In this document: positions 4,177 through 14,919 of the stretch, piece by piece
Numbering within the stretch: position 1 is the stretch's first letter
How the letters are laid out: each line of letters opens with the position of its first letter
Assembly: GCA_014799585.1 (NCBI GenBank)
Contig: JAAVHU010000023.1
Span: 1 to 24,899, forward strand
Source: Clostridiales bacterium
Lineage (GTDB): Bacteria; Bacillota; Clostridia; Oscillospirales; Acutalibacteraceae
Reading direction: 5' to 3'
DNA length: 24,899 nt
The notes under the pieces: generated by a model
What the model saw: the letters and a program-made list of their open reading frames with translations, nothing else
Database searches by the model: none
What the model was told of the DNA's origin: nothing
Made by a program: the position numbers and the translations under genes

Positions 4177-4572
4177 ATGAAAAAAATAATTATAGGCTCA
4201 TCAGCCGAAACTACAACAATTGTGAATTCAACCAATACGGCAATAACCGCGGGAAGCGGAAATCTTCCTGTGTTCGGCACACCGTTTATGATTGCCTTAA
4301 TGGAAAAGGCAACCTGCAATGCTGTTTTTGATTTTCTTGAAGAGGAGGAAACAACCGTTGGCACAAACGTAAGTGTTTCTCACGCAAAGGCAAGCGGGAT
4401 AGGCATGCTTATAACTGCAAAAGCTGTTATAACCGAATGCTGTGAAAGAAAAATCACCTTTGATGTTATAGCAACAGACAGCGAGGGTAACGTTATAGGC
4501 AAAGGAACAATTGAAAGATTTGTTGTAAATAAAAACAAATTTATGAAGAGAGTTGGCACAAATGAGATATAA
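4177..4572 (+). CDS. FlK-like hot-dog acyl-CoA thioesterase
   Basis: This 131-residue single hot-dog protein hydrolyses an acyl-CoA by family inference. It keeps the catalytic trio of fluoroacetyl-CoA thioesterase FlK (Thr42, Glu50, His76) at Thr35, Glu43 and His69, all shifted by exactly seven residues, within VFGTPFMIALMEKA and VGTNVSVSHAKASGIGM. The natural substrate is unlikely to be fluoroacetyl-CoA in a gut organism; a general housekeeping role or detoxifying acyl-CoA hydrolysis is more plausible. The start is the ATG at 4177, with an AGGGG ribosome site. It is the first gene of the operon and its end overlaps the HAD-Nudix gene by 11 bases. Confidence 0.82.
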   Translation: MKKIIIGSSAETTTIVNSTNTAITAGSGNLPVFGTPFMIALMEKATCNAVFDFLEEEETTVGTNVSVSHAKASGIGMLITAKAVITECCERKITFDVIATDSEGNVIGKGTIERFVVNKNKFMKRVGTNEI

Positions 4573-5752
4573 ATCAGTTATTTTCGATTTTGACGGAACA
4601 CTGTGCAACACAGGTGAAGGCGTTATGAAGAGTGCCAAATATGCACTTGAAGCATACGGCTATTCTGTTCCTGAAAATTTAAATGAATTATCCTATTTTA
4701 TAGGTCCTCCGCTTCTGATTACATTTCAGGAAAAGTACGGAGCAGACCCAACACGAGCAGATGAGCTTGTTCAAAAATACCGAGAAAGATATAACGACAA
4801 AGGTGTTTACGAAAGTAAACTTTATGATGGTATTGAAAACCTTTTAAATGCGCTGAAAACAGACGGCTTTAAACTTGCAATTGCATCATCAAAGCCACAG
4901 AAGTATGTTGAAATGCTGCTTGAACATTTTAACATCAAACAGTATTTTGATGTGATTTGCGGTGTATCCTTTAAGGCAGACTGTGAACCGAAATCAGATA
5001 TCATTGTGCGTGCTTTGAAAGAGCTTGAAACAGAAGTTTCCGAAACCCTTGTTGTTGGTGACACACATTTTGATATTGACGGTGCACGAATTAATCATAT
5101 AGACAGTGCCGGCGTTTTATGGGGATTTGGAACAAAATTTGAATTTATTGAAGCAGGGGCAAAATTCCTTGCAGAAAAGCCTGAAGATATAGAATCAATC
5201 GCACTTGGCTTTTTTGAACAGACCGAAGAAACAAATGGAATTTTCAACGGCAGAATTATAACGGTTCACGAAGATACTGTTATGCTTGTTGACGGCTCAA
5301 CAACCAAGCGTGAACTTGTTGACCACAACGGCGGTGTTGGTATTGTTGCTATAACAGACAATGATGAAGTTTTAATGGTGCGTCAATTCAGATCACCATA
5401 TAAAGAAACAATATTTGAAATTCCTGCAGGCAAACTTGAAAAAAATGAAGACCCGCAAAAGGCAGGCGAACGAGAGCTTGAAGAGGAATGCGGCGTTATA
5501 GCCGAAAATATTTTTGAGCTTGGAAAAGTATACCCTACACCGGGATATTGCAGCGAAATCATCCATATTTACGGAGCAACAAATTTAAAAGAAAGTAAGC
5601 AAATGCTTGATGAAGGTGAATTTCTTGAAGTTTACAGAGTTCCTCTTGAACAAGCATTTGAAAAATGTATGAACGGCGAATTTAAAGACGCCAAAACAAT
5701 AATAGGAATTATGAAAATCAGGGAAATGAAGCAAAATGGCAGTTTATCTTGA
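4562..5752 (+). CDS. Bifunctional HAD phosphatase - Nudix ADP-sugar pyrophosphatase fusion
   Basis: This 396-residue protein joins two complete enzymes. Residues 1 to about 215 are a phosphoglycolate-phosphatase-like HAD hydrolase: DFDGT (Asp9, Asp11), the IASS motif II at 107-110, Lys144 in EPKSD, and GDTHFDIDGA (167-175). Residues about 222-390 are a full ADP-ribose-pyrophosphatase-type Nudix domain, with its usual lead-in (FNGRIITVHEDTV) and a perfect Nudix box GX5EX7RELXEEXG at 290-311. No stop or frameshift separates them. If the Nudix half releases ribose 5-phosphate and AMP from ADP-ribose, the HAD half could remove the phosphate; this coupling is inference. The ATG at 4562 overlaps the thioesterase end by 11 bases; a TTG at 4553 is an alternative. 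The gene overlaps the cysteine desulfurase gene by 17 bases. Confidence 0.85.
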   Translation: MRYKSVIFDFDGTLCNTGEGVMKSAKYALEAYGYSVPENLNELSYFIGPPLLITFQEKYGADPTRADELVQKYRERYNDKGVYESKLYDGIENLLNALKTDGFKLAIASSKPQKYVEMLLEHFNIKQYFDVICGVSFKADCEPKSDIIVRALKELETEVSETLVVGDTHFDIDGARINHIDSAGVLWGFGTKFEFIEAGAKFLAEKPEDIESIALGFFEQTEETNGIFNGRIITVHEDTVMLVDGSTTKRELVDHNGGVGIVAITDNDEVLMVRQFRSPYKETIFEIPAGKLEKNEDPQKAGERELEEECGVIAENIFELGKVYPTPGYCSEIIHIYGATNLKESKQMLDEGEFLEVYRVPLEQAFEKCMNGEFKDAKTIIGIMKIREMKQNGSLS

Positions 5753-6874: not shown

Positions 6875-8047
6875 ATGAGAGAAATTATACTTGTAAAAAA
6901 CGGCGAACTTGTGCTTAAAGGATTAAACAGAAATTCTTTTGAAGATGTGCTGATAAAAAATATGAAAAGGCATCTTGCCGATATAGGAAAATTTAATTTT
7001 ACAAAAAGTCAGTCCACCATTATGGTTGAGCCTGAAAATGAGGATACAGACCTTGACGATGCAGTGGAAGCACTTAAAAAGGTTTTCGGCATTGCCGCTC
7101 TTTCAAGAGCAGCCGTTTGCGAAAAAGACATAGACGATATTATTAAAACAACAAAATCATACCTTGAAGATGAGCTTTTAACTGCAAAAACATTTAAGGT
7201 TGAAGCTAAAAGAAGTGATAAAAAATTCCCTCTTAATTCTCCGCAGATATGCAGAGAACTTGGCGGACAGATATTGAAAGCCTTTCATCATCTTAAGGTT
7301 GATGTACATAATCCAGATATTATTGTTACCGTGGAAATCAGAGACAGATTTGCTTTTGTTCGTGGCAACAACATCAAGGGTGCAGGCGGAATGCCGACAG
7401 GCACAAGCGGAAGAGCCGCCGTTTTAATCAGCGGAGGAATAGACAGCCCCGTTGCCGCATATATGATGGCAAAAAGAGGAATAGAGCTTATCTCCATTCA
7501 CTTCGCTTCCCCGCCTTACACAAGCGAACTTGCCGAAATGAAGGTTATGGAGCTTCTGAAAAAGGTTGCCGCATACAGCGGAACAATAACAACTTATGTT
7601 GTTCCGTTCACTGAAATTCAGGAAGCAATACGTGACTACTGCCCTGAGGATTATTTCACACTTGTTATGCGCCGCATAATGATGAAAATAAGCGAACAGA
7701 TTGCTGAAAACCAGAATTGTATGGCACTGATTACAGGCGAAAGCGTTGGTCAGGTTGCAAGCCAGACGATTTATGCACTTGGCTGCACAGACAGTGCAAC
7801 AGATATGCCTGTTTTCCGCCCTTGTATCGGTATGGACAAGGAAGAGATTATTAAAATTTCACGAAACATAGACACTTTTGAAACATCTATTCAGCCATAC
7901 GAAGACTGCTGTACTGTATTTACACCAAAACATCCAAAAACAAAGCCAAGGGTTCAGGATGTTATCGATGCAGAAAATAAAATTCCTAACCTTGATGAAA
8001 TGATGAAAACAGCAATTGAAAATGTAAAACGAGTATTTATCAGATAA
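6875..8047 (+). CDS. thiI: tRNA 4-thiouridine synthetase ThiI
   Basis: This 390-residue cytoplasmic enzyme thiolates U8 of tRNA and may also feed thiazole synthesis. An N-terminal ferredoxin-like/THUMP region (about 1-165) binds tRNA. The PP-loop SGGIDSP at 186-192 adenylates the uridine. The conserved PYEDCCTVFTPKHP places the sulfur-handling cysteine at Cys345/346. The protein ends without a rhodanese domain, as in Bacillus-type ThiI, so the persulfide must be relayed from a partner; the adjacent cysteine desulfurase fits that role. It is the last gene of the operon, and a 13-bp terminator stem begins 10 bases after the stop. Confidence 0.93.
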   Translation: MREIILVKNGELVLKGLNRNSFEDVLIKNMKRHLADIGKFNFTKSQSTIMVEPENEDTDLDDAVEALKKVFGIAALSRAAVCEKDIDDIIKTTKSYLEDELLTAKTFKVEAKRSDKKFPLNSPQICRELGGQILKAFHHLKVDVHNPDIIVTVEIRDRFAFVRGNNIKGAGGMPTGTSGRAAVLISGGIDSPVAAYMMAKRGIELISIHFASPPYTSELAEMKVMELLKKVAAYSGTITTYVVPFTEIQEAIRDYCPEDYFTLVMRRIMMKISEQIAENQNCMALITGESVGQVASQTIYALGCTDSATDMPVFRPCIGMDKEEIIKISRNIDTFETSIQPYEDCCTVFTPKHPKTKPRVQDVIDAENKIPNLDEMMKTAIENVKRVFIR

Positions 8048-8056
8048 AACAAATAT

Positions 8057-8087
8057 AAACGGGTACAGCTTTCCGCTGTACCCGTTT
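8057..8087. terminator. Terminator between thiI and hxlR-like gene
   Basis: A perfect 13-bp stem (8057-8069 with 8075-8087) has a five-base loop, ending in CGTTTGGTTT on the plus strand. The two genes converge here, so it probably serves both. Confidence 0.8.
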
Positions 8088-8090
8088 GGT

Positions 8091-8417
8091 TTATAAACCT
8101 GCCTTATAATTTTCTCCCCATTCCTGCATAGCATTAATAATAGACCGCATAGATTCACCAATTTCAGAAAGAGAATATTCAACTCTTGGCGGCACTTCGG
8201 GATAAACAGTTCTGTTAATTATGCCGTCCCTTTCCATAGAACGCAATGAATCGGTCAATACCTTTTGGCTGATGCCTTCAAGTGATTTTTGCAGTTCATT
8301 AAATCTCCATGGCCTTTGCAAAAGATTTCTCATAATAAGCAGCTTCCATTTACTGCCGATGAGATTAACAGTGGTTGCAACAGGGCAAGCATCAATAATT
8401 TCATCATTATTTTTCAT
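8091..8417 (-). CDS. HxlR-family winged-helix regulator
   Basis: This 108-residue MarR/HxlR-type dimeric DNA-binding protein has the family pattern ACPVATTVNLIGSKWKLLIM near the N-terminus, then LTDSLRSMERDGIINRTVYP (recognition helix and wing start). Cys11 sits in the CP position used as a redox or electrophile switch in YodB, HypR and related HxlR members, so sensing of quinone, aldehyde or thiol stress is likely; that is family-based inference. GGAG lies 8 bases before the ATG. The gene diverges from the ACGX peptide operon, and the shared 212-bp region contains a palindrome over its own promoter plus tandem repeats near the operon promoter. It is therefore the prime candidate for regulator of both. 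Confidence 0.88.
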   Translation of the reverse strand: MKNNDEIIDACPVATTVNLIGSKWKLLIMRNLLQRPWRFNELQKSLEGISQKVLTDSLRSMERDGIINRTVYPEVPPRVEYSLSEIGESMRSIINAMQEWGENYKAGL

Positions 8418-8448
8418 ATCAGTATCTCCATTACATCATTTTAGAATG

Positions 8449-8487
8449 TTACATTAAAATTATAATGTAATACAAAAAATAAGTCAA
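8449..8487 (-). promoter_or_regulatory. hxlR promoter with overlapping palindromic operator
   Basis: On the minus strand TTGACT (8482-8487) and TATAAT (8459-8464) are 17 bp apart. TTACATTA (8449-8456) and TAATGTAA (8463-8470) form a perfect 8-bp inverted repeat with a 6-bp centre covering the -10 box, as expected for autorepression. Confidence 0.6.
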
Positions 8488-8529
8488 ATAATAATTCTGA
8501 TTATTCAATAACGGCTTTCACGAACAAAA

Positions 8530-8567
8530 CTTACAAAAAAGTAACTACCCCACAAAAAAGTGCGTAC
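8530..8567 (+). promoter_or_regulatory. Tandem 19-bp operator-like direct repeats upstream of the ACGX operon
   Basis: CTTACAAAAAAGTAACTAC (8530-8548) is followed with no gap by CCCACAAAAAAGTGCGTAC (8549-8567). They agree at 14 of 19 positions, and each has an internal dyad (TTAC-A6-GTAA and CAC-A6-GTG). They end next to a weak promoter (TTTTCA at 8568-8573, 17 bp, TATGAT at 8591-8596). Two dimers of the divergent HxlR protein are the likely ligands; that assignment is inference. Confidence 0.5.
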
Positions 8568-8629
8568 TTTTCAGCAGGAACAAACTGTTATATGATTAAG
8601 TCAACGATTAAAGGAGGGTGGTGAAAATA

Positions 8630-8776
8630 ATGGCACTTAAGAATTTAGCAGCTTGGAACACAAAGAAGTCTGTAAAGACTCCTTCATCAGCTTGCGGTTC
8701 AGCATGCGGTGCTTCTGACGAAAAGAAAGCATATGCTGCATGTGGTTCTGCTTGCGGCGCAGGCGACAATAAATAA
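8630..8776 (+). CDS. ACGX-repeat RiPP precursor peptide (48 aa)
   Basis: This peptide reads MALKNLAAWNTKKSVKTPSS, then two ACGSACGA blocks (residues 21-28 and 37-44) separated by SDEKKAYA. Cys22, Cys26, Cys38 and Cys42 are its only cysteines. It matches the precursor type annotated as 'ACGX-repeat peptide' alongside a 'radical SAM/SPASM domain protein, ACGX system', recalled from family naming. The N-terminal 20 residues would be the recognition leader and the Cys blocks the modified core. The likely start is the ATG at 8630; in-frame GTG codons closer to the AAGGAGG site (8611-8617) are possible alternatives. No transporter or leader peptidase is encoded nearby, so the product may act inside the cell. 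The final modification is unknown. Confidence 0.85.
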   Translation: MALKNLAAWNTKKSVKTPSSACGSACGASDEKKAYAACGSACGAGDNK

Positions 8777-8780
8777 GAAC

Positions 8781-8872
8781 CTGATTTGCATTCTTTAAAT
8801 CAGAACCTTGTTGGTCTCAAACCTTAATGACCAATAAGTATTGTCTAAAGGGGCAGGTGTATTGTCTGCCCT
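8781..8872 (+). other. Three consecutive stem-loops between precursor and maturase genes
   Basis: The 144-bp gap holds CTGATTT/AAATCAG (8781-8787 with 8797-8803), TTGGTC/GACCAA (8811-8816 with 8829-8834) and GGGCAG/CTGCCC (8851-8856 with 8866-8871). None has a U-tract, so they are more likely RNA processing or stability elements than full terminators. They could keep the peptide mRNA more abundant than the enzyme mRNA, as in many RiPP operons. Confidence 0.5.
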
Positions 8873-8920
8873 GAATTCACGAACAATTCGTTATTACGAT
8901 TTTTATATAGAGGTAGCACT

Positions 8921-9955
8921 ATGAAACAATATTTTGCATTTCAATGGCATATAACAGATGATTGCGACCAGCGTTGCAAGCATTGCTATATTTTTTCAGA
9001 GGACAACTGCAAATACCTTGAGTCGATGACTTGGGGGCAAATGGAAAATACATTTTACAATTGTCTTGATTTTTGTGAAATGTATGACCGTCAGCCGTAT
9101 TTTTACATAACAGGCGGTGATCCTATTCTGCATCCAAATTTTTGGGAACTGCTTGAGCTGATACATAGCCGCAACATTAAATTTACAATTCTTGGAAATC
9201 CATTTCATCTGAATGATGAAGTATGTGAAAGGCTGAAAGCATTAGGCTGTGAAAAATATCAGCTTTCTATTGATGGAATAAGAGAAACGCACGATTGGTT
9301 CAGAAAGTCGGGTTCATTTGATACTACACTTGAAAAGATAGCAACAATAAAAAAAGCAGGCATAAAAGCAGTTATTATGACTACTGTTTCGGGTGTGAAT
9401 ATAAGAGAAATCCCCGATATTATTGATACCGTTGTTGAACGCAAAGCAGATGTTTTTGCCTTTGCAAGATATTGCCCAACAAGTGATGAAAAAGACACAG
9501 GAATGACGCCTGATGAATATCGCAATTTGCTTGATATTTGCTATAAAAAATACACCGAATATGAAAAGCAGGGCTATGAAACTTACTTTAATCGTAAAGA
9601 CCATTTATGGACGCTTTATGAATATGAGAAAGGAATATTCAAAATCCCTGCTGATGCCGAAGAAGGCCTGATTTACGGCGGATGTAATTGTGGTAATTGC
9701 CATATAACGATTCTTCCAAGTGGCGATGTGTTCGCTTGTCGAAGAGTCAGTGACAGTAAAATAGGCAATGTATTTGAGGACAGACTTGCAGATATATGGG
9801 TTTGTGATGCAGAACAATACAGAGATTACAGTAAGTTTGAAAAGTGCTCAAAATGTGAACTGCTTGCATGGTGCAGAGGTTGCCCTGCTGTTGCCAAAGG
9901 AACACACGGCAGTTTTTACGCACCTGACCCTCAATGTTGGAAGGAGATAAAATAA
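8921..9955 (+). CDS. Radical SAM/SPASM peptide maturase of the ACGX system
   Basis: This 344-residue enzyme has the radical SAM [4Fe-4S] motif CX3CX2C at Cys15, Cys19 and Cys22, with aromatic Tyr23 after it, and ITGGDP (63-68) in the usual SAM-binding place. The C-terminal SPASM domain has cysteines at 255, 257, 260, 273, 309, 312, 318, 321 and 339, enough for two auxiliary Fe-S clusters. It is expected to install radical-derived crosslinks or thioethers on the preceding Cys-rich peptide; the exact chemistry is not known to me. AGAGGTAG precedes the ATG at 8921. Its TAA overlaps the ATG of the nitroreductase by one base, showing tight coupling with that gene. Confidence 0.9.
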   Translation: MKQYFAFQWHITDDCDQRCKHCYIFSEDNCKYLESMTWGQMENTFYNCLDFCEMYDRQPYFYITGGDPILHPNFWELLELIHSRNIKFTILGNPFHLNDEVCERLKALGCEKYQLSIDGIRETHDWFRKSGSFDTTLEKIATIKKAGIKAVIMTTVSGVNIREIPDIIDTVVERKADVFAFARYCPTSDEKDTGMTPDEYRNLLDICYKKYTEYEKQGYETYFNRKDHLWTLYEYEKGIFKIPADAEEGLIYGGCNCGNCHITILPSGDVFACRRVSDSKIGNVFEDRLADIWVCDAEQYRDYSKFEKCSKCELLAWCRGCPAVAKGTHGSFYAPDPQCWKEIK

Positions 9956-10533
9956 TGCAGTTAATGGATATTATCAAATCAAGGCATTCCATCAGAAAAT
10001 ATACGAATAAGCAAATACCGAAAGAAGCACTTGAAACAATTATTGAAGCAGGCGTATGTGCTCCAAATGCAGGCGGCAGACAAGGTACAATCATTGTAGG
10101 TGTGCATAATGCTGAGCTTTGCAAAAAAATCGGAATAATGAATATGAATAGCTTTGATAGAAGCAAGCTTCTTGGCTCTTATGTATCAAAAGAACAGCCA
10201 AGTGTTATTGACGATAAGAATATTAAAAACGGTTTTTATGATGCGCCATCTGTAATATGCATTTTTGCACCAAAAGATTTTTTATTCAGCATTCCGGATG
10301 CCTTTTGTGCTGCTGAGAATATCGTTTTGCAGGCAACAGAGCTTGGAATTTCCTCTTGTATTATTTCAAGAGCTGAACAAACCTTTATTGATGATTACGG
10401 CAAGGAACTTTTGAATGAGTGGAATATTCCTGATCATTATATTGCAAGATGTTTTGTTACCCTCGGTTATATTGATGGTGAACAGCCACAGACAAAGCCA
10501 AGGCTTGACGGAAGATGTTTGATTGTGGAATAA
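9955..10533 (+). CDS. Nitroreductase-family flavoprotein
   Basis: This 192-residue FMN enzyme of the nitroreductase superfamily starts MDIIKSRHSIRKYTNKQIPK and continues with IIEAGVCAPNAGGRQ, the usual FMN phosphate and ribityl-binding region, and ends with an RCFVTLGY strand. Such enzymes reduce nitro groups or quinones, but some in peptide pathways oxidise azoline rings or other modified residues. Its one-base overlap with the radical SAM gene suggests a role with the ACGX peptide, perhaps as an oxidase or reductase for the modified core; a general redox-stress role under HxlR control is the alternative. AAGGAG lies 8 bases before the ATG at 9955; the in-frame TTG at 9934 is less likely. 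Confidence 0.87.
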   Translation: MQLMDIIKSRHSIRKYTNKQIPKEALETIIEAGVCAPNAGGRQGTIIVGVHNAELCKKIGIMNMNSFDRSKLLGSYVSKEQPSVIDDKNIKNGFYDAPSVICIFAPKDFLFSIPDAFCAAENIVLQATELGISSCIISRAEQTFIDDYGKELLNEWNIPDHYIARCFVTLGYIDGEQPQTKPRLDGRCLIVE

Positions 10534-10566
10534 TATAAAATACAAAAAGTAATCAGAGGTTAAGCT

Positions 10567-11493
10567 ATGATTTTACAAACAGGAATGAGAACGGATATAC
10601 CTGCGTTCTATTCAGAATGGTTTATAAACAGAATAAAAGAGGGTTATGTTTTAGTGCGTAATCCGTATAACCCATCCGCCGTAACAAAATACAGAATTAA
10701 TCCCGATGTGGTTGATTTAATTGCATTCTGCACCAAAAATCCCGCACCAATGCTGGAGCATATGAATATATTAAAGCCTTATGGTCAATATTGGTTTGTA
10801 ACCATAACGCCTTATGGCAAAGAAATTGAACCGAACGTGCCTGATAAAATGCAAGTTATTGAAAATTTCAAAACACTTTCAAAAACAGTTGGTATCAACA
10901 GCATCGGATGGCGATATGATCCCATATTTATAACAGAAAAGTATTCTCTTGAATTTCATTTGAATGCCTTTGAAAAAATGGCAAAGGCGCTTTCAGGATA
11001 TACAAACACCTGTATTATCAGCTTTGTTGATTTATATAAGAAGGTTATTAGAAATTTCCCACAGGCACAAATGGTAAACAAGGAAGAACGACTGACAATC
11101 GGAAAAGCCTTTGCCGAAATCGGCAAAAAATACAGCATAACAATCAAAGCGTGTGCAGAGGGTGATGAGCTTGCACAATATGGTGTTGACTGTAATGGTT
11201 GTTTAACGCAGGATGTATATGAAAAAGCATTACACACAAAGATGAATATGCCGAAGAGAAAAGGTCAGCGTGGTGAATGTGCTTGCTTTCTTGGTAACGA
11301 CATTGGCGCATATGATACTTGCAAGCATTTGTGTAAATATTGCTATGCAAACACCAACAAGAAAGCTGTTATCAGAAATTCAAAACTGCACAATCCAAAA
11401 TCTCCATTCCTTATCGGGAATCATCAACCTGGGGATAAAATACACGAGGTAAGGCAGGAAAGCTGGATTGATAATCAACTTATTTTAGGGTAA
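10567..11493 (+). CDS. DUF1848 family protein with C-terminal radical-SAM-like cysteine motif
   Basis: This 308-residue protein begins MILQTGMRTDIPAFYSEWF and includes NPAPMLEHM and WFVTITPYG, typical of DUF1848, which has a predicted TIM-barrel-like fold. Near the C-terminus, CKHLCKYCYAN has the exact radical SAM spacing CX3CX2C followed by Tyr, preceded by CACFLGNDIG. The family is known for having its Fe-S-type cysteine cluster at the C-terminus rather than the N-terminus. Biochemical function is unknown. AGAGGTTAAG precedes the ATG. The 33-base gap from the nitroreductase has no terminator, and the macrodomain gene begins 4 bases after the stop, so it links the two halves of the operon. 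Confidence 0.85.
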   Translation: MILQTGMRTDIPAFYSEWFINRIKEGYVLVRNPYNPSAVTKYRINPDVVDLIAFCTKNPAPMLEHMNILKPYGQYWFVTITPYGKEIEPNVPDKMQVIENFKTLSKTVGINSIGWRYDPIFITEKYSLEFHLNAFEKMAKALSGYTNTCIISFVDLYKKVIRNFPQAQMVNKEERLTIGKAFAEIGKKYSITIKACAEGDELAQYGVDCNGCLTQDVYEKALHTKMNMPKRKGQRGECACFLGNDIGAYDTCKHLCKYCYANTNKKAVIRNSKLHNPKSPFLIGNHQPGDKIHEVRQESWIDNQLILG

Positions 11494-11497
11494 TGAT

Positions 11498-12277
11498 ATG
11501 ACACAGAATGAAAAGCTTTTATGGTTAATTAAATATCTGCTTGCAGAAAATCCAAGATACAATGGCGTTGAAATACCTGATTGTATTGATGAGCAGTTTA
11601 ATTTGTATCGCTCACTTGTGAATGTTCGTATGACTAAAGCTATCAGCGAAGAATATCTTGCTGTCGAGGATGAATTTCTGCAAGAAGAAACAAGAAAAAA
11701 AGGTATCAATCATATAAATGAGCTGATACCTTGCAGTGAAGATATGTATTTATGGCAGGGGGATATAACAACGATTGATGCAGACGCAATCGTTAATGCT
11801 GCAAACAATCAGCTTTTGGGTTGTTTTTGTCCTTGCCACGCTTGTATAGATAATTGTATTCATACTTTTTCAGGTGTAAGACTTCGTTTAAAATGCAATG
11901 AAATTATGCAGAAACAGGGATGCAAAGAACCAACAGGCAATGCAAAGATTACTCCGGCATATAATCTTCCGAGCAAATATGTTATTCATACTGTCGGTCC
12001 GATTATAAGCGGTATTCTTACAAAAAGAGATAAAGAATTGCTTGCATCCTGTTATACAGAGTGCCTAAAACTCGCAGATGAAAACAATTTGAACAGCATT
12101 GCGTTTTGCTGCATTTCAACAGGCGAATTCCATTTTCCTAATAACAAGGCGGCACAAATTGCAATAGATACAGTTAAAGAGTATAAAGAAAAAACAAATA
12201 GTAAAATCAAGGTGATATTCAATGTTTTCAAGGATAAAGACTACAAAATCTACAGAGATTTACTCTGTGCAGATTGA
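11498..12277 (+). CDS. Zinc-containing macrodomain, protein ADP-ribosyl hydrolase
   Basis: This 259-residue protein has a helical N-terminal extension (about 1-75) and then a macrodomain: GDIT (88-91), DADAIVNAANN (94-104), the zinc-loop GCFCPCHACIDNCIHTFSGV (108-127) and CISTGEFHFPN. The CFxPxHxCIDNxIHT pattern marks the SirTM-linked macrodomain class of staphylococci and streptococci, which removes the ADP-ribose put on by SirTM. Cys116 and His114/His122 are the likely zinc ligands; the extra Cys111, Cys113 and Cys120 are unusual and could make the site redox-sensitive. It overlaps the SirTM gene by 56 bases, so the writer and eraser are strictly linked. Confidence 0.9.
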   Translation: MTQNEKLLWLIKYLLAENPRYNGVEIPDCIDEQFNLYRSLVNVRMTKAISEEYLAVEDEFLQEETRKKGINHINELIPCSEDMYLWQGDITTIDADAIVNAANNQLLGCFCPCHACIDNCIHTFSGVRLRLKCNEIMQKQGCKEPTGNAKITPAYNLPSKYVIHTVGPIISGILTKRDKELLASCYTECLKLADENNLNSIAFCCISTGEFHFPNNKAAQIAIDTVKEYKEKTNSKIKVIFNVFKDKDYKIYRDLLCAD

Positions 12278-13094
12278 TAAATTAAAAAAGGCACTTGACG
12301 AATGTAATGCAGTGGTTATCGGTGCAGGCGCAGGGCTTTCAACAGCAGCAGGATTTGTCTACAACGGAGAAAGATTTGATAAGTATTTTTCTGATTTCAA
12401 AGCGAAATATGGCTTTGATGATATGTACTATGGTGGATTTTATCCGTATAAAACACAGGAGGAATTCTGGGCATATTGGAGCAGATATATTTATATAAAC
12501 CGCTATATGGATGTTCCATCAGATTTGTATATAAAATTGTTTGATTTGGTTAAAGATAAAGATTATTTTGTTATTACAACGAATGTTGACCATTGCTTTC
12601 AAAGAGCAGGTTTTGATAAAAAAAGATTATTCTATACGCAAGGAGATTACGGACTTTTTCAGTGCAGTGAGCCCTGCTGTCAAGAAACATTTGATAATGA
12701 AGAAATCATCAAAGCAATGTATGAACAGCAAAGAGATATGAAAATATCGAGTGAGTTACTGCCGAAGTGCCCTCATTGCGGAAAACCTCTTACAACAAAC
12801 TTGAGAGCGGATGATAAGTTTGTTCAGGATGAAGGTTGGTATAAAGCAAGCGAAAGATATAGTGATTTTATCCGCAGGAATAAAGATTTGAATATACTTT
12901 ATCTTGAACTTGGAGTGGGCTATAATACACCGATTATTATCAAATATCCCTTCTGGCAGATGACTGCACAAAATTCAAAGGCAACCTATGCCTGTATCAA
13001 TATGGGCGAGGCAGTTTGTCCGATAGAAATCGAACATCAGTCAATACGTATCAATGCTGATATATCAAAGGTAATTGAAAATATAGCAAAATGA
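12222..13094 (+). CDS. SirTM-class sirtuin, protein mono-ADP-ribosyltransferase
   Basis: This 290-residue Rossmann-fold sirtuin has VIGAGAGLSTAAG (32-44), TTNVDH (119-124) and a four-Cys zinc module (Cys148, Cys152 or 153, Cys183, Cys186). The deacetylase His is replaced: the site reads YTQGDYG with Gln140. Asn121, Gln140 and Arg195 match the essential Asn118, Gln137 and Arg192 of S. aureus SirTM at a constant offset of three. It should therefore ADP-ribosylate a protein using NAD rather than deacetylate. AAGGTGA precedes the ATG at 12222, supporting a start inside the macrodomain gene. In described operons the target is a lipoylated GcvH-L; neither GcvH-L nor LplA2 is in this window, so the target here is open. 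Confidence 0.9.
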   Translation: MFSRIKTTKSTEIYSVQIDKLKKALDECNAVVIGAGAGLSTAAGFVYNGERFDKYFSDFKAKYGFDDMYYGGFYPYKTQEEFWAYWSRYIYINRYMDVPSDLYIKLFDLVKDKDYFVITTNVDHCFQRAGFDKKRLFYTQGDYGLFQCSEPCCQETFDNEEIIKAMYEQQRDMKISSELLPKCPHCGKPLTTNLRADDKFVQDEGWYKASERYSDFIRRNKDLNILYLELGVGYNTPIIIKYPFWQMTAQNSKATYACINMGEAVCPIEIEHQSIRINADISKVIENIAK

Positions 13095-13116
13095 GGTAGG
13101 CAATGCCTACCTCATT
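13090..13116 (+). terminator. Terminator at the end of the SirTM gene
   Basis: An 11-bp stem (13090-13100 with 13106-13116), extendable to 13 bp, overlaps the SirTM stop codon at 13092-13094 and leads into an AT-rich tail. Confidence 0.7.
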
Positions 13117-13127
13117 AATTATATAGT

Positions 13128-13331
13128 TTATATGCAGCTTTTATATATAATCTCTCTTGCTTGATTAGAAATGTTATTCATCATTTGCACCCATAATATT
13201 TGATTTTTTACTTTGAGTTCTTCTGTAATACCTTGACTTTCGGCAAGCTGTTTTACAAGCAATTTATATTGTTCTTTTGCCCTAATATCAACATTGTGTA
13301 GATATGAATTGAGCTTACCTTGTGTGAGCAA
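13128..13331 (-). pseudogene. TnpV transposon protein remnant (C-terminal part)
   Basis: The 67 codons read LLTQGKLNSYLHNVDIRAKE and end LWVQMMNNISNQAREIIYK, the recognisable C-terminal half of TnpV, a small accessory protein of Tn4451-like Clostridia transposons. The open frame continues a few codons upstream (NRCYSN) before an in-frame stop, and no ATG is available; only a TTG at 13331 could start it. The N-terminal half is missing, so this is a decayed fragment. It sits exactly between the SirTM operon and the phage-tail island, marking a past insertion boundary. Confidence 0.7.
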
Positions 13332-13356
13332 ATTGGAATAACACCTATTTCCACTT

Positions 13357-14919
13357 TTATATTACATGATAAAAATCAGAATAATCGGTTGGCATAACCC
13401 CTATTTCTAATTTTGGCTTTGCAAATTCAACAATTGCGTGTTGCGGTTCATCACCTGTTCCTGCATTTGCACGAAGGCAAACAGTTAAACCGGCAAAGTC
13501 TTGTTTGTTAACAAAATTTAATGTTAAAAAAATGATCTGCCAAGCGGTATTATCAAAATCCTTTTTAGCATAAAGCTTGCCTTGATTATACGAATTGCCA
13601 TTAATAAAAGCGATTGTGCCACCTGCATTTTTCAAGTTATTCTTCTGTAAAACACGAGCCCATACTGAAAAGGTTATCGGCACTCCCATTAATTCATCCG
13701 CATTTTTAACTGTTTGAATAACATCCATCTGTTCATTTAAAGAATTACCTGAATGCTTAATAGTAATTGAATGATCATTGAAAACAACACTTGTGCTGTC
13801 ATTCGCCAATTTCCAATCTTCATTGAATACTTTATCTTTTCCCATTAAGCCTTTAACACAATCAGATGATTTCACATAGCCCGCTTTAATCTTAGAATAT
13901 GGAAAATCAAAGTTAATTACTTCAGAACTACATTCGAGCATACCTAAGGGATTTTGGCATTCAATATCTCTGTAATACTCGGTATTCTTTTCAACAATAT
14001 AACTATCTTTTGGAGCTGATAAATCATCATTAAGGTATTGTTTGCATACAATGCTGTTTGTAATTAATTTGCTAAGTTTTTTGCAAAGCCAAACTGAATA
14101 TTCTTCTTTCAACTGTGCAATTCTTTCATCCGCAGTTTTTGAATTATCAACAATTAAATTAACACATTTATACATATACTGATAATATTCCTTACAAAAA
14201 TGCAACTCGTGTATCAAACGTGGATGCCTGCCGTCTCCATAAACACCAAAAGGCATCTTTATACTATGACAGCCGGGGCACTTTTCTTTAAATAATTTAT
14301 AGAACTCAACAAGTCTATTATTAACCTTTTCTCTGGCTCCCTTAGGGAAAGTATACAGCTGCTTATCAATTTCATAATGATCTAATCTAAGATTTTCAAT
14401 CATTATGATTTGATCTTCTCTGTAATGCAAATCATTTTTCAGCCAATCTAATAAGCCGTCTATAATTATATTCGCATCTATTTCTCTAAAAATCTTAAAG
14501 CGGCTTATTGCCTCTATCTTACTGCCAGAAAAGAAACTCTTAAGTCCTGCTTTATAAGCACTATTAAACCAAGCAGAGCAGGAAAAATAATGAATAGAGC
14601 CATCTTCATAAGTTTGTTTATACAGATTTGTATTTGCCCAGTCAGCAAAATCAATAATCATATAATCTGATGGCTTCTCATAATAATCAACCAATGTTTT
14701 ATTATAATCGTTAATAATGCACTTCTTTTTGAAATTCGGCATATTTATATTTTCAAAATTTTCCATAGACAGTATGTTTTTTGGTTTATCATTAAAATAA
14801 AAATTCACCATTGGAGAAGATCCCTGAAGAAAATGTATAACTTCGTGCGGATTATTTTCAGCAAAGGTAAATAAATCTCTGCAAACACAACAACCGTATA
14901 TATTAAATGTAGCCATCAT
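13357..14919 (-). CDS. DUF6270-like SGNH-type protein with fibre-like C-terminal domain
   Basis: This 520-residue protein opens with FNIYGCCVCRDLFTFAENN and has SDYMIIDFADWANTNLY and GDGRHPRLIHELHFC, the layout of DUF6270 proteins (SGNH-like, linked to surface polysaccharide modification). The usual GSC nucleophile serine appears as Cys10, so esterase activity is uncertain. From about residue 345 on, a beta-rich region (WKLANDSTSVVFNDHSITIK to FAKPKLEIGVMPTDYS) looks like the carbohydrate-binding ends of phage tail fibres. AGGAG stands 4 bases before the first ATG (14919) and 7 before a second (14916), which may be the true start. It has its own consensus promoter at 14946-14974. The family assignment is moderate. 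Confidence 0.6.
   Translation of the reverse strand: MMATFNIYGCCVCRDLFTFAENNPHEVIHFLQGSSPMVNFYFNDKPKNILSMENFENINMPNFKKKCIINDYNKTLVDYYEKPSDYMIIDFADWANTNLYKQTYEDGSIHYFSCSAWFNSAYKAGLKSFFSGSKIEAISRFKIFREIDANIIIDGLLDWLKNDLHYREDQIIMIENLRLDHYEIDKQLYTFPKGAREKVNNRLVEFYKLFKEKCPGCHSIKMPFGVYGDGRHPRLIHELHFCKEYYQYMYKCVNLIVDNSKTADERIAQLKEEYSVWLCKKLSKLITNSIVCKQYLNDDLSAPKDSYIVEKNTEYYRDIECQNPLGMLECSSEVINFDFPYSKIKAGYVKSSDCVKGLMGKDKVFNEDWKLANDSTSVVFNDHSITIKHSGNSLNEQMDVIQTVKNADELMGVPITFSVWARVLQKNNLKNAGGTIAFINGNSYNQGKLYAKKDFDNTAWQIIFLTLNFVNKQDFAGLTVCLRANAGTGDEPQHAIVEFAKPKLEIGVMPTDYSDFYHVI

Follow-up and report, generated by a model that had tools for sequence, protein, structure and literature searches.

Does a ribosomally synthesized and post-translationally modified peptide (RiPP) of the ACGX type belong, in function, to the ADP-ribosylation genes beside which it is encoded, and which product of such an operon would be ADP-ribosylated? 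These questions are raised by a 24,899-nucleotide stretch of DNA from a Clostridiales bacterium (contig JAAVHU010000023.1, order Oscillospirales), here called the window, in which genes for an ACGX-repeat precursor peptide, its radical SAM maturase, a nitroreductase-family flavin oxidoreductase, a DUF1848 protein, a zinc-macrodomain ADP-ribose hydrolase and a class M sirtuin (SirTM) follow one another behind a divergent HxlR regulator gene. The union of the two halves recurs in related genomes, and the operon is probably an anaerobe's response to electrophile or thiol stress in which the modified peptide takes the position that lipoyl-GcvH-L has in other operons.

ACGX genes are linked to SirTM and macrodomain genes in related genomes

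Unbiased figures were obtained from two samples, namely 245 genomes from the order of the window, the window included, and 391 genomes from the class, of which 16 carry the maturase rSAM_ACGX, 12 of these outside the order. Counted at E <= 1e-60, rSAM_ACGX is present in 11 of the 245 order genomes and exceeds the family cut-off in 10; the count includes the window and genome G201, in which a maturase fragment of 220 bits stays under that cut-off. A zinc-macrodomain over the curated cut-off was found in 45 of the 245 genomes, that is, in 10 of the 11 ACGX genomes (the exception being G151) and in 35 of the 234 others (Fisher p 1.7e-7, uncorrected for phylogeny), and the association is asymmetric in that 35 of the 45 macrodomain genomes are without ACGX. 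In six of the ten genomes (the window, G161, G076, G136, G067 and G031) at most 5 kb separate the macrodomain gene from the maturase gene. In G094 the maturase runs to a contig end and the macrodomain starts another contig, which is compatible with one split operon; in G201 the maturase fragment borders one end of its contig, and the 10 kb that were read beyond it contain no macrodomain; G098 and G036 have the two genes at separate places.

Outside the order, a SirTM homologue was detected in all 12 ACGX genomes of the class sample, and in 10 of them it is encoded within 5 kb downstream of the maturase on the same strand. In G563, one of the two exceptions, 1.7 kb separate the maturase from a contig end, the SirTMs being encoded on other contigs. 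All 12 genomes possess the ACGX peptide and a nitroreductase/MDR-type gene after the maturase, an HxlR gene diverges upstream in 10, and a gene for a PNPOx-ferredoxin protein follows in 8. Altogether, a SirTM homologue was present in 22 of 23 ACGX genomes (17 of 18 by search, and G000, G031, G067, G136 and G161 by locus). At locus L205 (genome G346) the genes for HxlR, ACGX, radical SAM enzyme, MDR reductase, DUF1848, macrodomain and SirTM follow one another in the order of the window, with one reductase exchanged. A wider scan with one genome per GTDB species gave at least 561 stretches with a relative of the maturase, of which the 80 most similar were kept, a set that is biased accordingly; SirTM or a macrodomain is encoded within 6.5 kb in 36 of the 63 loci with at least 5 kb of downstream sequence.

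The maturase SCIFF (TIGR03974) served as control: of the 45 macrodomain genomes, 35 encode it, and in none of these 35 was it found within 10 kb of the macrodomain gene; proximity across contig ends may escape this figure, both genes being on one contig in only 2 of the 35. The linkage counts together with this control reject chance linkage. As linked systems are also found in records not labelled metagenome (L127, Agathobaculum sp. Marseille-P7918, and L123, Blautia sp. An249), a binning artefact is disfavoured. Co-occurrence of ACGX genes with macrodomain and SirTM genes, which the initial annotation had proposed as a test of the linkage, was borne out, and the HxlR-headed redox-type operon that it described recurs across several families.

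Layout of the operon in the window

The six genes lie on the plus strand and are spaced, from peptide to SirTM, by a 144-base gap, a 1-base overlap, a 33-base gap, a 4-base gap and a 56-base overlap; coordinates and family models agree to the base with this arrangement as first described, the divergent HxlR gene included. It had also been stated that no terminator occurs before position 13090, and a terminator scan of positions 7500-14000 indeed returned no plus-strand site. A hairpin at the SirTM stop codon (13092-13114, plus strand), found by eye, T-poor and uncalled in that scan, is a possible operon end. An Rfam search of positions 7900-13300 gave no match at the gathering threshold. On the same strand, 3 kb upstream, a fusion of a HAD phosphatase with a NUDIX domain is encoded (4553-5752), which by eye is like ADP-ribose pyrophosphatases and might provide a route for disposing of released ADP-ribose or be there by coincidence.

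The HxlR regulator and a conserved two-box operator

The divergent gene (8091-8417, minus strand) encodes a MarR-type regulator (PF01638, 112.5 bits; cut-off 20.8) with a single cysteine, C11 in DACPV, and the HxlR domain together with this conserved N-terminal cysteine assigns it to the HxlR/DUF24 group. An N-terminal C[PA] is present in 72 of 74 related HxlRs, and exactly one cysteine in 65 of the 74. DUF24 regulators are reported to sense quinones, diamide and HOCl via such a cysteine and, in Bacillus subtilis, to have a nitroreductase and an azoreductase under their control (PMC6943732). By analogy, the regulator of the window would sense stress by oxidants or electrophiles via its N-terminal cysteine.

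Operator counts were made on 74 of 76 ACGX loci (without L150 and L127). By anchored alignment, a two-box motif, approximately GTTACAAAAAGGTRACTA and then AAAAAAGTGCGTACTT with an A/T-rich run between them, was aligned in 72 of the 74, in most cases 80-99 bases ahead of the peptide start, and the 8-mer GTACGCAC occurs in 70 of the 74 upstream regions versus 0.5 expected from shuffles. In the window, the putative HxlR-type operator (CTTACAAAAAAGTAACTA + CCCCACAAAAAAGTGCGTACTT, 8530-8569, given without strand) abuts a promoter-like site at 8568-8596, promoter-like sites in the region being at background number; a divergent promoter-like site, TTGACT-17-TATAAT, lies at 8487-8459, the scan total again being at background (28 vs 25.1 in shuffles). 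An 18-base piece of the operator has one exact copy in the genome of the window, the assembly being 67.6% complete. The same operator motif precedes SirTM operons without ACGX that have close HxlR relatives (L067, L071 and L087), and a related motif precedes several SirTM operons without ACGX that have more distant HxlRs. We infer that HxlR binds the two-box operator.

The ACGX peptide and its maturase

The peptide gene (8630-8776) encodes 48 amino acids with CX3CX3D repeats, and the maturase gene (8921-9955) encodes a radical SAM/SPASM enzyme (PF04055 and PF13186) with the cysteines C15-C19-C22. Both products exceed their curated cut-offs (TIGR04341, 29.4 vs 28 bits; TIGR04340, 609 vs 400 bits) and are encoded side by side, and the pair is thus an ACGX RiPP system. 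Peptide statistics were calculated for 72 of 76 peptides, leaving out the miscalled L150, L120 and L170, whose frames overrun the repeats, and L127, which is the contig of L018. Most of the cysteines (425/450) fit CX3C or CX3[D/E], the residue four positions after the cysteine being Asp or Glu in 241 cases and Cys in 184, and the leaders are mostly of the form MAL.NL..W. The maturase PapB is reported to link Cys to Asp in CX3D motifs, nested ones included (PMC9413430), and the ACGX peptides show this PapB-type CX3D/E spacing of donor and acceptor. The ACGX maturase itself lies outside the PapB family (NF047865, 68 bits vs a cut-off of 340) and scores higher on other maturase models, the best being SbtM with 174 bits (cut-off 350). 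The kind of modification is therefore only predicted, from peptide cores that resemble those of cross-linked ranthipeptides.

The 144-base gap behind the peptide gene contains hairpins (8781-8872, plus strand; folding z -2.69 vs dinucleotide shuffles), and among its relatives the first 30 of 61 peptide-maturase gaps were folded and all 30 gave negative z values, with a mean of -3.3 versus plain letter shuffles. A stem behind a precursor gene is usually read as keeping its mRNA abundant.

A precursor gene beside a radical SAM maturase gene is also a common bacteriocin layout, and from this layout one might take the ACGX peptide for an exported antimicrobial or signal, with SirTM and macrodomain serving in self-protection. 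We consider this explanation very improbable, given that family scans of the window operon revealed neither an exporter nor a leader peptidase among its genes (the flanks of the relatives lay outside this check), that the neighbours are redox enzymes, and that the peptides show conservation and a high content of Ala, Gly, Cys, Ser, Lys, Glu and Asp.

SirTM and the zinc-macrodomain

The SirTM gene (12222-13094; PF02146, 26.7 bits, cut-off 24) encodes a divergent SIR2 protein and predicted protein ADP-ribosyltransferase whose closest solved structure is the SirTM of S. pyogenes (5a3a, E 6e-69), and the motifs GAGAGLS (GxGAGxS) and TTNVD (TTNxD) place it among the class M sirtuins. Both motifs are present in 44 of 47 SirTMs of ACGX loci, STNAD being counted. 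The product of the macrodomain gene (11498-12277; NF003163, 360.7 bits, cut-off 272) is closest to the zinc-macrodomain structures 8rsi and 5kiv, and its N-terminal extension aligns to 8rsi from residue 4 of the latter. It contains the zinc loop Cx4HxC and the dyad Dx3H, which are described as features of zinc-macrodomains (PMC11490716) and which occur in all 39 ACGX-locus macrodomains of at least 240 amino acids. Among 58 relatives scored, an overlap of 50 or 56 nucleotides between the macrodomain and SirTM genes is the commonest arrangement. Zinc-macrodomains are reported to be active on ADP-ribose attached to Asp or Glu and to Cys (PMC11490716), and as the ACGX peptide offers Cys and Asp/Glu, these residue types were counted for the peptide as target. 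Genes for DUF5131, another family with a CX3CX2C motif, adjoin SirTM in L018:14697-15611, L087:11032-11904 and L206:140-1009, and one lies inside an ACGX operon in L107:10529-11434 (assigned by a PF07505 scan in L018 and L107).

GcvH-L and LplA2 are missing from the operon

In extended operons, GcvH-L is the reported substrate of SirTM (Rack 2015, PMC4518038). In agreement with the initial annotation, family scans found neither GcvH-L nor LplA2 in the window operon, which thereby falls outside the extended type, and no full-length GcvH was found in the genome of the window (67.6% complete) or in its 15 linked relatives (G031, G067, G136, G161, G076, the last linked by its macrodomain, and ten class genomes). 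Among the 11 order ACGX genomes, which the search for lipoate ligase covered, full-length GcvH and lipoate ligase are present only in G098, and among the 12 class genomes full-length GcvH is present only in G529; in both of these ACGX is unlinked to SirTM. Short GCV_H matches at or over the cut-off in G161 (only when summed with its neighbours), G346 and G490 we take to be biotin-carrier-like. Absence of GcvH as a trait specific to ACGX genomes was rejected, GcvH being found in 5 of the 35 macrodomain genomes without ACGX and the other 30 lacking a GCV_H match at 1e-10. As GcvH is rare with or without ACGX, its lack is general in this group and shows only that another target must exist; to our knowledge, SirTM/zinc-macrodomain pairs without GcvH-L have no established substrate. 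The macrodomain MorMacro, from a minimal operon, and macrodomains of fusion proteins are reported to be inactive on SpyGcvH-L, and the substrates of the fusion proteins are described as still to be identified (PMC11490716).

Oxidoreductases and the gene before the macrodomain

The gene next after the maturase encodes the nitroreductase-family protein in the window (9955-10533; PF00881, 85.6 bits, cut-off 23.5) and a nitroreductase or MDR quinone-reductase-like protein in 52 of the 62 loci with sufficient downstream sequence (L161, on the same contig as L017, was left out of this count; L127 was kept in both downstream counts). It is followed in the window by the DUF1848 gene (10567-11493; PF08902, 345.6 bits, cut-off 30.5), and DUF1848-macrodomain-SirTM had been treated as a trio. 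As the standard arrangement this trio was rejected: DUF1848 directly precedes the macrodomain at 3 of 49 ACGX loci (the window, L205 and L149) and at 1 of 36 other scored loci, and a PNPOx-ferredoxin protein does so at 29 of the 49 and 13 of the 36; a nitroreductase stands there in 5 loci. The PNPOx-ferredoxin protein was not found in the genome of the window (67.6% complete) in a search without positive control. In the Agathobaculum-type operon at L018:11008-13110, three nitroreductase-family genes stand in a row, one of them with a ferredoxin domain.

DUF1848 is a large family (at least 7,999 scored candidates, all matching) with a C-terminal CX3CX2CYAN motif, the cysteines of which are invariant in 24 aligned rows and in the 120 closest homologues. 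When a model of the protein was structurally aligned, the top 30 rows were all radical SAM entries. Residue 1 of the model aligns to positions in radical SAM barrels that presumably come after the cluster loop; by sequence, the alignment to radical SAM proteins was limited to the motif. On this modelling, a circularly permuted radical-SAM-like protein is one possible identity of DUF1848.

Apparent joining and parting of the two halves

Distances between SirTM and macrodomain are correlated with r 0.69, and those of the PNPOx-ferredoxin protein correlate with the maturase (0.58), SirTM (0.59) and the macrodomain (0.60). A quick tree of SirTM was built from 81 rows, of which 47 are linked to ACGX, 29 are not and 5 are unclear; 35 of its 78 inner branches are open. 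On this tree the linked state requires at least 16 changes versus a shuffle mean of 26.2 (0 of 500 shuffles as low), and 4 changes are forced by well-supported branches.

Several observations weigh against the reading of the operon as a unit in which the peptide takes the place of lipoyl-GcvH-L. On the tree, which is weakly resolved, at least 16 changes in the linkage of SirTM to ACGX are needed; the maturase correlates with SirTM at only r 0.31, so that tight peptide-SirTM co-evolution was not found, and with the nitroreductase at 0.04, which is not significant. In the wider scan, 27 of the 63 ACGX loci are without SirTM or macrodomain within 6.5 kb, and many SirTM pairs occur without ACGX. 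In G076 the macrodomain is linked to ACGX and SirTM is on another contig, and in G529, the second exception of the class sample, the only SirTM match is 43% identical and again on another contig. From the changes on the tree and the distance correlations, the ACGX and SirTM halves therefore appear to come together and separate again and again around the PNPOx-ferredoxin protein as a hub. Such a pattern favours a functional module with exchangeable parts and disfavours an obligatory peptide-SirTM pair, and as to the target of ADP-ribosylation, co-variation clearly favours neither the peptide nor a partner enzyme.

The linkage could also reflect chance or hitchhiking on a mobile island without functional link. 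Directly after SirTM, on the opposite strand, a fragment of a TnpV transposon protein is encoded (13128-13331, profile positions 46-111 of 111); further downstream lies the gene for a BppU-type phage protein (15371-17173). SirTM was found on viral contigs at 3 loci, and as the IMG/VR contig L029 (positions 4-1588) bears pieces of DUF1848, macrodomain and SirTM in this order, the DUF1848-macrodomain-SirTM module may travel with mobile DNA. However, gene order, operator and overlaps are conserved across several families and the SCIFF control showed no proximity, and we give chance or hitchhiking as the explanation hardly any credence.

Candidate targets of ADP-ribosylation

In the stress response proposed here, oxidants or electrophiles would meet the single N-terminal cysteine of HxlR, and the two-box operator at the promoter would be released. 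The peptide, with the stable hairpins behind its gene, would be produced in larger amounts than the enzymes, and its CX3C/CX3D repeats would be cross-linked or modified in some other way by the radical SAM enzyme. Judging from their families, the nitroreductase would provide flavin-based reduction, SirTM would put ADP-ribose on an operon product and the zinc-macrodomain would take it off again.

Tentatively, and by analogy, we rank the ACGX peptide first among the candidates for ADP-ribosylation, on account of the parallel to the GcvH-L operon and because ACGX is nearly confined to genomes that have a SirTM homologue. The hub position of the PNPOx-ferredoxin protein is an argument for an enzyme, and the flavin or Fe-S partner enzymes are about equally likely targets. 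In a more specific form, the ACGX peptide might serve in place of lipoyl-GcvH-L as a ribosomally made redox carrier of thiol/thioether type and be switched by SirTM and zinc-macrodomain at Asp or Cys, a possibility that we advance with reserve. An alternative, which we hold to be rather unlikely, is that the genes merely share a regulon, SirTM and macrodomain acting on the preceding flavin or Fe-S enzyme (PNPOx-ferredoxin, DUF1848 or nitroreductase) and the modified peptide serving separately as a thiol or metal buffer. The frequent position of the PNPOx-ferredoxin gene directly before the macrodomain gene and its co-variation with both halves are consistent with this alternative; yet no enzyme is constant in that slot, and the near-restriction of ACGX to SirTM genomes is left unexplained.

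Read as a thiol-stress module with the peptide in the place of lipoyl-GcvH-L, the gene set suggests an undescribed on/off switching of the modified peptide or of partner enzymes. The conserved operon partners form a testable set of candidate substrates for SirTM/zinc-macrodomain pairs without GcvH-L, and ACGX peptides would gain a likely physiological setting, namely thiol/electrophile stress in Clostridia. RiPP chemistry would be connected with reversible ADP-ribosylation; we know of no other RiPP controlled in this manner.

Comparison with known systems

No open-access paper was found for TIGR04340, TIGR04341, rSAM_ACGX or target_ACGX, subscription journals being mostly outside the search, nor was one found that names DUF1848 or that combines at least four of the terms radical SAM, macrodomain, sirtuin, RiPP and precursor peptide. 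Among the matches listed, the only string match for ACGX with radical SAM and peptide was the unrelated peptide AcGXGNH2, none of the papers on sirtuin, radical SAM, ADP-ribosylation and RiPP contained 'radical SAM', and no ranthipeptide-related title concerned an ACGX-SirTM pairing. The ACGX RiPP and the SirTM/macrodomain pair are each known, and as far as we have seen their union is new.

The NCBIfam models TIGR04341 and TIGR04340, both exceeded in the window, span only peptide and maturase. With the ranthipeptide system PapA/PapB (PMC9413430), the ACGX peptides share repeated CX3[D/E] motifs with nested cysteines, whereas the ACGX maturase falls short of the PapB model. In the YodB, CatR and HypR regulons of B. 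subtilis, a DUF24 sensor with an N-terminal cysteine likewise stands over genes for nitroreductases and other reductases; unlike in the window, no RiPP or SirTM genes are among those described there (PMC6943732). Lone SirTM/zinc-macrodomain pairs, the minimal operons, of which MorMacro is the one macrodomain assayed (PMC11490716), have the same pair of enzymes, whereas in the window the pair is set among the genes of a RiPP system and behind an HxlR operator. The extended operon of Staphylococcaceae and Lactobacillales consists of GcvH-L, LplA2, OYE/LLM, Zn-Macro and SirTM (Rack 2015, PMC4518038) and has in common with the window SirTM and the zinc-macrodomain, a flavin oxidoreductase, a redox-stress setting and a small thiol carrier with its modifying enzyme. 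The window differs from it in the HxlR regulator, in the nitroreductase that replaces OYE/LLM and in the added DUF1848 or, in relatives, PNPOx-ferredoxin protein. By position, the two operons match, with the ACGX peptide for lipoyl-GcvH-L and the radical SAM enzyme for LplA2, followed by a flavin oxidoreductase, the macrodomain and SirTM.

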